NCBI GenBank assembly: GCA_031265995.1
Contig: JAISBW010000028.1
Coordinates: 1-53,839, forward strand
Source of the DNA: Oscillospiraceae bacterium
Lineage (GTDB): Bacteria > Bacillota > Clostridia > Oscillospirales > Acutalibacteraceae
Direction of reading: 5' to 3'
DNA length: 53,839 nt
Below are positions 1 to 53,740 of this stretch, piece by piece. The notes under the pieces are model-generated. The model was given only the letters and a program-made list of their open reading frames with translations, was not told where the DNA came from and searched no databases. The position numbers and the translations under genes are program-made. Numbering within the stretch: position 1 is the first letter of the stretch; every line of letters starts with the position of its first letter.

Positions 1-39
1 TGCATTTACACGAAATTCTTGTGTATAACTTCTTTGCAT
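1..39 (-). CDS. Transposase N-terminus (IS3-like OrfA), cut by window edge
   Basis: An ATG on the minus strand at 39-37 follows a good ribosome binding site (AGGAAAGGTG) and opens the frame MQRSYTQEFRVNA, which runs off the left edge. The pattern basic-Y-T-x-E-F-x-x-x-A is typical of the helix-turn-helix start of IS3/IS911-type OrfA proteins. Only 13 residues are visible, so the family call rests on this pattern and on the matching terminal repeat and transposase tail at the other end of the window. Confidence 0.5.
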   Translation of the reverse strand, partial: MQRSYTQEFRVNA

Positions 40-81
40 TTTGAATTTCACCTTTCCTTAATTTTATTTGATTTATTTGGC

Positions 82-97
82 GAAATTCATTGTAACT
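82..97. repeat. Terminal inverted-repeat block of the left-edge IS
   Basis: The 16 bases GAAATTCATTGTAACT are, in reverse complement, 15/16 identical to 53741-53756 at the right edge. Here the block lies upstream of a transposase start. At the right edge it overlaps a transposase stop. This is the arrangement expected of the two inverted ends of one IS type. Confidence 0.55.
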
Positions 98-208
98 TTT
101 TTTGTACCAGATCACTTTATAAAATAAAAATTTGCTATAAAATTCAAATTTTCAAGTTAAAAAAAATATGTATGATAATTTTCAGAAACATTATATAATG
201 TCAAGAAC

Positions 209-6802: not shown

Positions 6803-6954
6803 ATCGTGTACCGGAATTATTGAAAAGCAATAATAAATACGAATACAGCTATGCGTCTTTAAAAAGTTCAAATAACCTCTTGAATAGTTTTAAATTAATC
6901 CCCCAAGATCTCTTTCGTATAAAAGAGGTCTATTTTCATAACCTGTTCTCATAG
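6790..6954 (+). CDS. Doubtful 54-residue ORF overlapping the end of tilS
   Basis: An ATG inside the tilS stop region opens a 54-codon frame beginning MSKIDRVPELLKSNNKYEYS and ending HNLFS. Its last codons and stop are supplied by the palindromic repeat that begins at 6940. No ribosome binding site or recognisable family is seen. It may be a remnant of whatever gene followed tilS, or chance. Confidence 0.25.
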   Translation: MSKIDRVPELLKSNNKYEYSYASLKSSNNLLNSFKLIPQDLFRIKEVYFHNLFS

Positions 6955-7013
6955 ATTCGTAATGTCAGTTTTAAAGAAAATTTTGAATAATTTTTATTAA
7001 GAACCCGTTCTCA
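6940..7013. repeat. Palindromic repeat, family B
   Basis: Starts AACCTGTTCTCATAGATTCG, contains the core TTTTAAAGAAAATTTTGAAT and ends at a second tip, GAACCCGTTCTCA. The core recurs in reverse orientation at 11.6 and 26.9 kb. Compared with the complete copy at 39978 the right end is rearranged. Confidence 0.75.
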
Positions 7014-7075
7014 GTAATAATATAAGAAATATCTGAATAAAAATTATTTGACATCGATTTTATGAGAGGTAAAAA

Positions 7076-10585: not shown

Positions 10586-11563
10586 ATGAAAAAAAATAAT
10601 GTTAATAATACAAAAATAATCTTTATGGGAACATCCGATTTTGCAGTAAAATCCCTAGAAAATCTCGTCAAGAATAATTTTGATGTAAAAATGGTCGTAA
10701 CTCAGCCGGATAAACCACAAGGAAGAAAGAAGGAAATATGTTCACCGCCGGTAAAAATTTGTGCAAAAAATTTTGATATTAAAGTTTTTCAGCCCAATAG
10801 TTTAAAAAAAAGTGAATCTATAGAAATTTTGTCAGAGATTAATCCTGATTTTATTGTCGTCGCTGCTTATGGGAAAATTTTACCCGAAGGTGTGTTAAAT
10901 ATCCCGAAAATTTCATGTATTAACGTGCATGGTTCTATTTTACCAAAATTGCGTGGCGCGGCACCAATTCAATGGGCAATTCTAAACGGCGAAACTCAAA
11001 CAGGCATTACGATTATGAAAATGGATTCCGGAATGGATACAGGAGACATTTTATTTCAGCGAAAAACTCCAGTTAACGAAACAGAAACAGCAGGCGAGCT
11101 TATGGCAAGACTTGCCGATATTGGTGCAGAGCTTCTTGTGGAATCTTTAGAAAAAATTATCGAATTGGGGGAGATTAATAAATTTAGGATTAAGCAAAAT
11201 GATAGTTTGGCTACGTATTCTAAAATAATAAAAAAAGAAAACGGAATAATTGATTGGCGTGAAAGCGCGGTTAAAATTTCAAGATTAGTGCGCGCAATGA
11301 ATCCTTGGCCTGTTGCTTTTACATTTTTGGATGATAAAATTTTTAAAATTCATAAAGCAAATATTTTAAAAGAAAATAATTTATGTGGAGACTGCGGAGA
11401 ATTATCATCAAGAGATCCTGCAATAGTGTGTTGTGGAAAAGATGTGCTTGAACTCATTGAAGTTCAAATTGAAGGTAAAAAACAAATGCCGGCAGTTAAT
11501 TTCTTTAGAGGATATAAGATTGGCGAGAAAATTAAATTTAAGAACCTATTCTCACAAATTTGA
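10586..11563 (+). CDS. fmt: Methionyl-tRNA formyltransferase
   Basis: Transfers a formyl group from 10-formyl-THF to initiator Met-tRNA. The N-terminal domain shows the family core: IIFMGTSDFAVKSLE, the catalytic Asn-His-Asp region with SCINVHGSILPKLRGAAPIQ, and MDSGMDTGDIL. The C-terminal domain begins about residue 210. The usual neighbours def and priA are absent. The ATG at 10586 directly follows a TTG; GAGG lies about 11 nt upstream. The last residues (KNLFSQI) are encoded by a family B repeat tip that runs through the stop. Confidence 0.95.
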   Translation: MKKNNVNNTKIIFMGTSDFAVKSLENLVKNNFDVKMVVTQPDKPQGRKKEICSPPVKICAKNFDIKVFQPNSLKKSESIEILSEINPDFIVVAAYGKILPEGVLNIPKISCINVHGSILPKLRGAAPIQWAILNGETQTGITIMKMDSGMDTGDILFQRKTPVNETETAGELMARLADIGAELLVESLEKIIELGEINKFRIKQNDSLATYSKIIKKENGIIDWRESAVKISRLVRAMNPWPVAFTFLDDKIFKIHKANILKENNLCGDCGELSSRDPAIVCCGKDVLELIEVQIEGKKQMPAVNFFRGYKIGEKIKFKNLFSQI

Positions 11564-11650
11564 AACAACATTTTTAAGAACCTGTCTTCAATAAAAATTA
11601 TTCAAAATTTTCTTTAAAATTGGCATTCTGAGTCTATGGGAACAGGTTTT
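11541..11650. repeat. Palindromic repeat, family B, overlapping the end of fmt
   Basis: Begins AGAACCTATTCTCACA inside fmt. A second tip AGAACCTGTCTTC follows at about 11579, then the core AATAAAAATTATTCAAAATT and the right end CTATGGGAACAGG. The copy looks like two overlapping left ends, as at 6.9 kb. Confidence 0.75.
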
Positions 11651-11797
11651 AAAAAATCGCCTCTTGCAATGTCTAAAACTTGTTTGTATACTGATACATA
11701 TTTCAATCTGAAATAAGTGAATTTTAATTCATAAATTACTAATTTATCGAAATTCAAAATCACTAGTAAAAGTCTTTGCATAAGGGGTGATTTGTAG

Positions 11798-17225: not shown

Positions 17226-17464
17226 ATTTACCACCTGCAAACATACTATAAAACACGTGAATCTGGATCATGTCACGAAATAGTTAAAGCTTATTCTTTA
17301 TCTCACGTTGTGGGCGATTCAGGGAGTTGTCATCAACTAATTTAGACCACGGCCAAAATCTGCTTATCAATCTCTACAAACTCAGAACCTGCTTTTCACC
17401 AAACTAAAACGCAAACCCACAAGTAATCTTTGAAATTTTTTTTGACGTATTTGACGCCGATTGA

Positions 17465-18109
17465 CTAACGCCAAACGAGGAAAATAAACAAAAAAACGCC
17501 AAAAATTATCAAAAAGCCACGTTTCGGATTTGATGAGAACAAATTCTTAGTCTCTGAATTGTAACGGGAGTATACTTTTTTAAAAAAAATATTCTTTCTA
17601 AACGAAACAACAAAAAACGACACCCAAGAAAAAAACACCGAAAGCCATAAAAGAACACCAGAAACCTTTAAATAAGATGATACAAAAAAAATCTGGTGAA
17701 GCATAATAATATGTATTGAAAATATCTGGAGTATAGTTTTTATCTTTCCGAAAACGTTTGCCTCAATTTTTAAATTCTGTTTCGACAGCTCCAATCTTGT
17801 TGCAGACATGACAAATTCACGAACCAACAACAAAATGATCGGAACCACACCCACCAAGCTTAATTTAAGAAAACATAAAAGAACCGGAAAAATTAGCACC
17901 TTATCAGCAACCGGATCAAAAATTCTTCCAAAATCCGTCGCCCCGTTTTTTCTCGCAATTACGCCATCTAAAAAATCAGTGAGAGAAGCAATTGAGAAGA
18001 CTAGCATACAAAAAAAATAAACGAAAGGCGAGTGATAAAACAATAGCATCGTACATATAACTGCTGAAAAAAATATTCTAGATAAAGTTAAGAAATTAGC
18101 AACATTCAT
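17465..18109 (-). CDS. pgsA: CDP-diacylglycerol-glycerol-3-phosphate 3-phosphatidyltransferase with extra C-terminal tail
   Basis: Makes phosphatidylglycerol phosphate at the membrane. The CDP-alcohol phosphotransferase signature (DG-x2-AR-x-G-x3-D-x3-D) is seen in DGVIARKNGATDFGRIFDPV. Several membrane helices follow. After the usual end, a tail of about 40 residues (SETKNLFSSNPKRGFLIIFG, then a hydrophobic stretch) adds another helix. The DNA for this tail has a second copy at 49934-50035. GGAG lies 4 nt before the ATG. The gene starts 15 nt after the recA stop, so the two are probably cotranscribed. Confidence 0.92.
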   Translation of the reverse strand: MNVANFLTLSRIFFSAVICTMLLFYHSPFVYFFCMLVFSIASLTDFLDGVIARKNGATDFGRIFDPVADKVLIFPVLLCFLKLSLVGVVPIILLLVREFVMSATRLELSKQNLKIEANVFGKIKTILQIFSIHIIMLHQIFFVSSYLKVSGVLLWLSVFFSWVSFFVVSFRKNIFFKKVYSRYNSETKNLFSSNPKRGFLIIFGVFLFIFLVWR

Positions 18110-22147: not shown

Positions 22148-22241
22148 TTTTTACTTCTATTTTTTATTTTTTTAGATTTTCACACAGTCAAAGTCTTAAT
22201 TAGTTTTACTAAAATTTATGAAAGAATATTCCTCATTTTTT

Positions 22242-22405
22242 AGAACCTGTATTCAAAAGGGCAAATTCCAAATTTTTGAAGAATTTTTCTTCTAAAATGA
22301 GGAAAAAAGCGCAATGAATACTTTATGTATTCTGAGCATTTTTGACAAAATTTTGAAAAAAATTATTGAAAATTGAGTATTTTGATCCTTTTGAATACAG
22401 GTTCT
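22242..22405. repeat. Palindromic repeat, family A (complete copy)
   Basis: 164 bp bounded by perfect terminal inverted repeats AGAACCTGTATTCAAAAGG and CCTTTTGAATACAGGTTCT. A small hairpin, GAATAC / GTATTC, lies in the middle, so the whole element can fold as one long imperfect hairpin. Further copies lie at 27.0, 29.2, 30.5, 37.2, 39.7 and 53.5 kb. Confidence 0.9.
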
Positions 22406-22406
22406 T

Positions 22407-22440
22407 AGAGCCTGTATTCAAAGACTATGAAACAGGCTCT
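22407..22440. repeat. Mini-palindrome joining a family A and a family B tip
   Basis: Left end AGAGCCTGTATTCAAAG has the family A tip. The right end CTATGAAACAGGCTCT has the family B tip. The body is absent. Confidence 0.6.
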
Positions 22441-26927: not shown

Positions 26928-27172
26928 TCTGTAAGAACAGATTTTTAATAAAAATTATTCAAAATTTTCTTTAAAACTGAGAATCTGTATTCAAAAGGGC
27001 AAATTCCAAATTTTTGAAGAATTTTTCTTCAGTAATAGTAAAAAAAGTCAATGAATACTTTATGTATTATGATCATTTTTAACAAAATTTTGAAAAAAAT
27101 TATTGAAAATTGGGTATTTTGATCCTTTTGAATACAGGTTCTGACACTCCAAATCCATAGAAACGGGTTCTA
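26912..27172. repeat. Family B repeat split by an inserted family A repeat
   Basis: Positions 26912-26979 carry the family B left part and the core ATTCAAAATTTTCTTTAAAA. Positions 27143-27172 carry the family B right end (ATCCATAGAAACGGGTTCT). Between them is a complete family A element. Removing it rejoins a normal family B copy like that at 11.6 kb. Confidence 0.75.
26980..27142. repeat. Palindromic repeat, family A, nested in family B
   Basis: Starts AGAATCTGTATTCAAAAGG and ends CCTTTTGAATACAGGTTCT. The central GAATAC / GTATT hairpin is kept. Confidence 0.85.
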
Positions 27173-53523: not shown

Positions 53524-53597
53524 AGAACCTGTATTCAAAGGGCAAATTCCAAATTTTTAAAGAATTTTTCTTCAAAATGAGGAAAAAAGCGATGAAT
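53524..53597. repeat. Family A repeat, left half only
   Basis: AGAACCTGTATTCAAAGGGC and the following 50 bases match family A. From 53598 the sequence changes to a different palindrome. A GGTTCTA resembling the family A end follows at 53697, so the right half was replaced. Confidence 0.75.
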
Positions 53598-53696
53598 GAG
53601 TATATCCCAAATTTTGTGCAAAGCCTGAAAACCAGTGTGAGAATAATTTATTTTCACGCTGGTTTTCGGACTTTACACAAAATTTGGGATATACTC
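53598..53696. repeat. 99-bp inverted repeat inside a family A copy
   Basis: GAGTATATCCCAAATTTTGT opens one arm, and the reverse complement closes the element. The outer 21 bp are perfect; each arm is about 48 bp with only five differences, several of them compatible with G-U pairing. It is a separate palindromic element (or IS end-derived) not seen elsewhere in the window. Confidence 0.75.
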
Positions 53697-53740
53697 GGTT
53701 CTACCTTTTTCTTAGTAATAAAAATGAAATTGTCAAATTC

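Follow-up and report, generated by a model that had tools for sequence, protein, structure and literature searches.

A palindromic intergenic repeat family, very probably an IS5-type MITE, has expanded in a small-genome lineage of Acutalibacteraceae

Among described systems, MITECca01 of the Cardinium endosymbiont cOegib is the closest precedent for the repeat family reported here; it reaches 169 copies, occupies 3.5% of the chromosome and is absent from relatives (PMC9769881). Ends and targets of the type relevant below are known from ISLrh, a member of the IS1031 subgroup of the IS5 family with ends GAACCTGTCTAGTATCT, TNA targets and 3-bp repeats, its type of transposase being encoded in two overlapping frames (PMC12016507). 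Correia and ERIC elements as well as Chunjie MITEs have been reviewed (PMC10969869). The family addressed in this study, termed family A, consists of palindromic elements of ~162 bp with the 18-bp terminal inverted repeat (TIR) GAACCTGTATTCAAAAGG, inserted at TNA targets with a 3-bp duplication. It is very probable, in our view, that the family is a MITE, a non-autonomous DNA transposon, of the IS5 family and IS1031 type; a resident insertion sequence (IS) probably moves it.

The window analyzed here, a stretch of 53,839 bp, is contig 11 of a draft genome of 1.04 Mb in 65 contigs. Together with four long contigs of the same genome it formed a 378-kb sample, searched with a profile built from 28 genomic copies of family A, while genome-wide counts derive from motif searches. 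A preliminary description of the window had placed seven copies of a 164-bp palindrome at 22.2, 27.0, 29.2, 30.4 (inverted), 37.2, 39.7 and 53.5 kb. Repeat finding and the profile search identified family A sequence at all seven positions, but only five copies are full length, the 29.2-kb locus being a chimera with another family and the 53.5-kb locus truncated. The loci and one adjoining palindrome are as follows (TSD, target-site duplication):

22243..22404, plus strand: family A, full length, perfect 18-bp TIRs, TSD TTA at 22240-22242 and 22405-22407
22408..22439, unstranded: 32-bp mini-palindrome GAGCCTGTATTCAAAG...GAAACAGGCTC adjoining the preceding copy, flanks TTA and TAA
26981..27141, plus strand: family A, full length, inside a family B element, TSD TGA at 26978-26980 and 27142-27144
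29167..29328, plus strand: family C/A chimera, left end of C (29167-29215) followed by positions 49-163 of A, flanks TAA and TTA
30441..30601, minus strand: family A, full length, inverted, TSD TTA on both sides
37195..37355, plus strand: family A, full length, TSD TAA on both sides
39717..39876, plus strand: family A, full length; ends diverged, TSD decayed to TTA and TTG
53525..53702, plus strand: family A remnant, left ~70 bp followed by palindrome D (53598-53696) and by GGTTC of the right end of A

The stretch 22242-22405 starts with AGAACCTGTATTCAAAAGG and closes with its exact reverse complement; the perfect 19-bp TIR described for it stands as written, but its outermost A/T is part of the duplicated 3-bp target, leaving the element itself a TIR of 18 bp, which is conserved in most full-length copies. 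When up to three mismatches were allowed, AGAACCTGTNTTCAA matched the window 33 times versus 8.7 times expected, a number reached in 0 of 100 shuffles, so the repeats are no product of chance. Judged by its letters, the 32-bp mini-palindrome looks like a minimal element with an A-like kind of ends. The 163-nt consensus folds on the plus strand into a single long hairpin of 67 pairs (~-60 kcal/mol), bearing out the proposal that the whole element can form one hairpin. Likewise, the statement that no transposase is encoded agrees with our finding no ORF of at least 100 amino acids inside family A; the size of 162 bp, below the limit for MITEs (<~300-400 bp), the lack of a transposase gene and the TIRs are all as expected of such an element.

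In the 378-kb sample, the profile gave 77 non-overlapping matches covering 2.6% of the sequence. They represent 47 full-length copies and ~70 loci, a few matches being halves of one deleted or interrupted copy. The previously estimated density of about one per 8 kb holds for the window (7 per 54 kb) as well as for the sample (47 full-length copies per 378 kb), and simple scaling extrapolates to ~130 full-length copies and ~200 loci in the whole genome; well over a hundred sites between genes carry family A. The end motif TWA-GAACCYGTATTCA (TWAGAACCYGTATTCA) has 179 exact occurrences in the genome (91 + 88), a small share of these being ends of the related IS rather than of A, as opposed to 0 occurrences of the backward control and 0-3 per genome in 58 relatives. 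With the whole element as query, six genomes of the same genus yielded short partial matches or none, and a search of viral contigs and plasmids found no family A. These sequence comparisons indicate that the family expanded in this lineage. Copies confined to orthologous positions in relatives without any sign of insertion, named beforehand as evidence against mobility, are thus not what the data reveal, the relatives being without the family.

Evidence for insertion comes from the flanks and, at base level, from nested copies. Identical 3-bp flanks were seen at 27 of the 47 full-length copies (17 TTA, 9 TAA, 1 TGA; nearly all TNA); 2000 shuffles gave 17 such copies on average and never more than 25. 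At the other 20 copies the flanks are unequal, presumably owing to decay or recombination, and we have counted this against our preferred explanation. Empty sites were sought by joining the flanks minus one duplication and searching the result against the genome. This uncovered a single TGA in family B for the copy at window 26981-27141, TAA in family B for C26:49643 (C numbers denoting contigs of this genome), and TTA in family C for C10:33462 and C26:19220. The reverse nesting also occurs, with a family C element inside an A copy and TGA on both sides (C10:59242-59543). Nested copies thus show insertion with a 3-bp TNA duplication at base level, and both target-site duplications and empty sites (TGA, TTA, TAA), as expected of a MITE, are present. 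Between species, no orthologous empty site was found at base level because the flanking intergenic DNA does not align; the phosphomannomutase gene beside two A copies, for example, is also present in three relatives, where the adjoining intergenic DNA is without alignment. At three loci we observed an identical internally deleted form of ~86 bp with intact ends, suggesting that the ends of A alone suffice for movement, with repeated deletion at the same short repeat as the alternative.

Family A shares the genome with further palindromic families, and A to D together make up 3.9% of the sampled sequence. Family B has GAACCTGTTCTCATAGA-type ends, variable length and ~26 matches in 378 kb, its ends and flanks being of the same kind as those of A; family C is ~165 bp long with ends GAGCCTGTCTAATATCTCC and ~19 matches in 378 kb. 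The ends of both families were too variable for automatic TSD calls, which relied on fixed end motifs. Palindrome D (GAGTATATCCC...GGGATATACTC; 99 bp) is present in at least four copies in 378 kb, and its ends, unlike those of A, B and C, would perhaps mark another mobile family. Representative loci of families B and C and the insertions into A copies are:

6935-7036, 11541-11654, 17393-17547 and 39975-40074 of the window: family B
26935..27170 of the window, plus strand: family B element interrupted by an A copy, TAA on both sides
29167-29215 of the window; C9:47218-47381, C13:60367-60530 and C10:39139-39303: family C
C10:39139, C10:59449, C9:8508 and C13:40526: insertions into A copies at the foot of the central stem

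The four insertions into A copies share one site, TGA (TAA in one case), at the foot of the central stem, out of 13 TNA sites in family A, which suggests an insertion hot spot; similarly, two A insertions use the identical site of family B. One might speculate, though we regard the notion as rather unlikely, that the MITE families sharing this genome prefer one another's hairpins as insertion targets; were this general, the palindromes would offer safe landing sites, and genes in a reduced, gene-dense genome would be spared. Apart from these families, window positions 1-114 are the beginning of another multi-copy, assembly-breaking element, found again where contigs C9, C10, C13 and C26 end, with a frame that reads like the start of an IS3-type transposase. 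The right end of the window (53800-53839) matches the start of contig C1 in reverse complement, a sequence common to contig ends.

A search with PF01609 led to an 812-bp IS at C2:1-818 with TAA on both sides and ends GAACCCGTATTCAGTAA, also given as GAACCCGT with the same flanking TAA. Its frames match NF033580 (transpos_IS5_3, IS5 family transposase), PF13340 and PF01609, the match to NF033580 being partial and, owing to the split frames, scoring under the curated cut-off; the candidate helper therefore encodes an IS5-family DDE transposase. With its TNA target, 3-bp duplication and GAACCTGT-type ends, it would belong to the IS1031 group as defined in PMC12016507, a subgroup assignment that draws on the ends and the target. 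The preliminary description had suggested looking for an IS whose ends match, and one exists: the ends TWA-GAACCCGTATTCA agree with those of A at 12 of 13 terminal bases and in the TNA target, as expected of a MITE and its autonomous partner, while the inner bases diverge. The C2 copy is the sole fully assembled one and is defective. Compared with its relative in genome G003, it has lost the reading frame in its final portion and is without the WVVERT stretch, which in IS5 transposases holds the catalytic glutamate. Another copy, at C40, is degraded. Further left ends (C31, C32, C33) and right ends (C55, C42, C59) all lie at contig ends and stop 119 bp into the IS (166 bp for C31), a pattern resembling the assembly overlap. 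Since the interiors of these contig-end copies are absent from the bin, an intact copy is neither shown nor excluded. The IS ends are 95-100% alike among copies, and the same ends are found in the related genomes G003, G006 and G031.

Given the stable hairpin of the consensus and the almost exclusively intergenic location of the copies, one might suppose that the palindrome persists on account of its structure in RNA or DNA, as a bidirectional terminator, REP-like mRNA stabilizer or nucleoid site, with transposition explaining its spread only. We consider this very improbable. The copies, with a median identity of 94% to the consensus, break pairs at the rate of column shuffles (254 versus 257 in 68 copies), and the 13 compensatory changes in the same copies are a number that shuffling also reaches (mean 7.8, maximum 17), contrary to what a conserved structured or REP-like RNA would display. 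A bias to convergent gene pairs was absent as well, such pairs harboring 16% of intergenic A copies versus 14% of intergenic bases, with simple ORF calls taken as genes; the intergenic copies are distributed in proportion to the intergenic bases available, and selection against gene disruption likewise predicts such placement. An Rfam scan returned only tRNAs and no match to family A. Decay without compensatory changes, combined with the lack of a gene-orientation bias, speaks against a conserved function as RNA or as terminator, and we rejected the former for lack of covariation in 68 copies and the latter for lack of orientation bias. Of the two options originally offered, that of a MITE mobilized in trans stands, while that of a structural element finds no support; that this particular IS acts in trans is a further step, taken up below. 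An origin of the pattern in misassembly or binning, by mis-joined repeats or contamination, is hardly credible. The draft is indeed in 65 contigs, several of which end in A or IS copies, but true high-copy repeats produce breaks at repeats, estimated contamination is 0.39%, and in five of five sampled contigs A copies sit within long contigs amid ordinary genes. The burst of family A accounts for part of the assembly fragmentation.

More weight attaches to the question of which IS mobilizes family A. The family has 18-bp ends beginning GAACCTGT, inserts at TNA with a 3-bp duplication, is spread in this lineage only and decays neutrally, and its likely transposase source is the resident IS. In the mechanism we propose, the resident IS5-family IS, with its near-identical ends, would make a DDE transposase that, in trans, recognizes the ends of A and carries the palindrome to further TNA targets; thereafter, the copies would have no conserved role and would decay by mutation, by recombination with other MITE families and by nested insertions. 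The defect of the only fully assembled copy counts against this mechanism, leaving a current source of transposase putative. Moreover, the ends of the IS and of A agree over 13 bp (with one mismatch) and then diverge, so that A did not arise from the resident IS by simple internal deletion; the actual parent may be a different IS, perhaps one since lost. It is a serious, if tentative, possibility that A was mobilized by a different IS5-type IS, now lost or unassembled, and is a dead family. Common to the IS and A are only the outer 13 bp, and no autonomous IS with exactly A-type ends was found, nor any transposase between paired ends at GAACCTGTATTCA loci in the stretches read of G001, G011, G014, G019 and G028. 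On the other hand, the best A copies are 99% identical to the consensus, several contigs break within A copies, as expected of near-identical copies, and one resident IS type, with the uniform ends noted above, fits both the ends and the target of A. Movement of family A by the resident IS is thus what the sequences would favor.

As to the host, an ATP/ADP translocase is encoded in this genome and in four of four same-genus genomes tested, and sporulation-type genes are present, with SipL in the window and SpoIIR-like and sporulation-sigma-like ORFs recognized by inspection. The Candidatus Improbicoccus clade comprises small-genome Acutalibacteraceae (1.0-1.3 Mb) that are endosymbionts of termite-gut protists (PMC10579323). 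We infer that the host belongs to an ATP-importing clostridial endosymbiont clade that includes Candidatus Improbicoccus, and it is probably intracellular. The window also encodes a Ras/Roc-type small GTPase (PF00071, PF08477; 28330-29067, minus strand), a eukaryote-like regulatory protein of a kind already described from these endosymbionts. In its main text, the clade genome paper reports mobilome pseudogenes, with the words 'transposase' and 'insertion sequence' absent (PMC10579323), and no earlier report of an element like family A in this host was found in the literature. Our analysis thus documents a lineage-specific MITE burst in a genome apparently of ATP-importing clostridial endosymbionts.

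Family A is a known kind of element, an IS5/IS1031-type MITE, in a clostridial host. Like ISLrh and the IS1031 subgroup, it has ends beginning GAACCTGT, a TNA target and a 3-bp duplication, and the start of family C (GAGCCTGTCTAATATCT) nearly matches the ISLrh end; unlike ISLrh, family A is without transposase, only ~162 bp long, palindromic throughout and different after the first 8 to 9 bases. With Correia and ERIC elements and Chunjie MITEs it has in common that all are short palindromic intergenic repeats in tens to hundreds of copies, many of them truncated, a likeness by description across different hosts with no sequence relation claimed. MITECca01, too, represents a MITE burst specific to one lineage, that of an endosymbiont with a reduced genome, and it is linked to an IS residing there (PMC9769881). 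Its parent, however, is of the IS982 family with intact copies, whereas the candidate for A is of the IS5 family with only defective or partial copies assembled; ends, phylum and host differ as well, and A coexists and nests with several MITE families. The parallel with Cardinium nonetheless suggests that MITE bursts recur in shrinking genomes.
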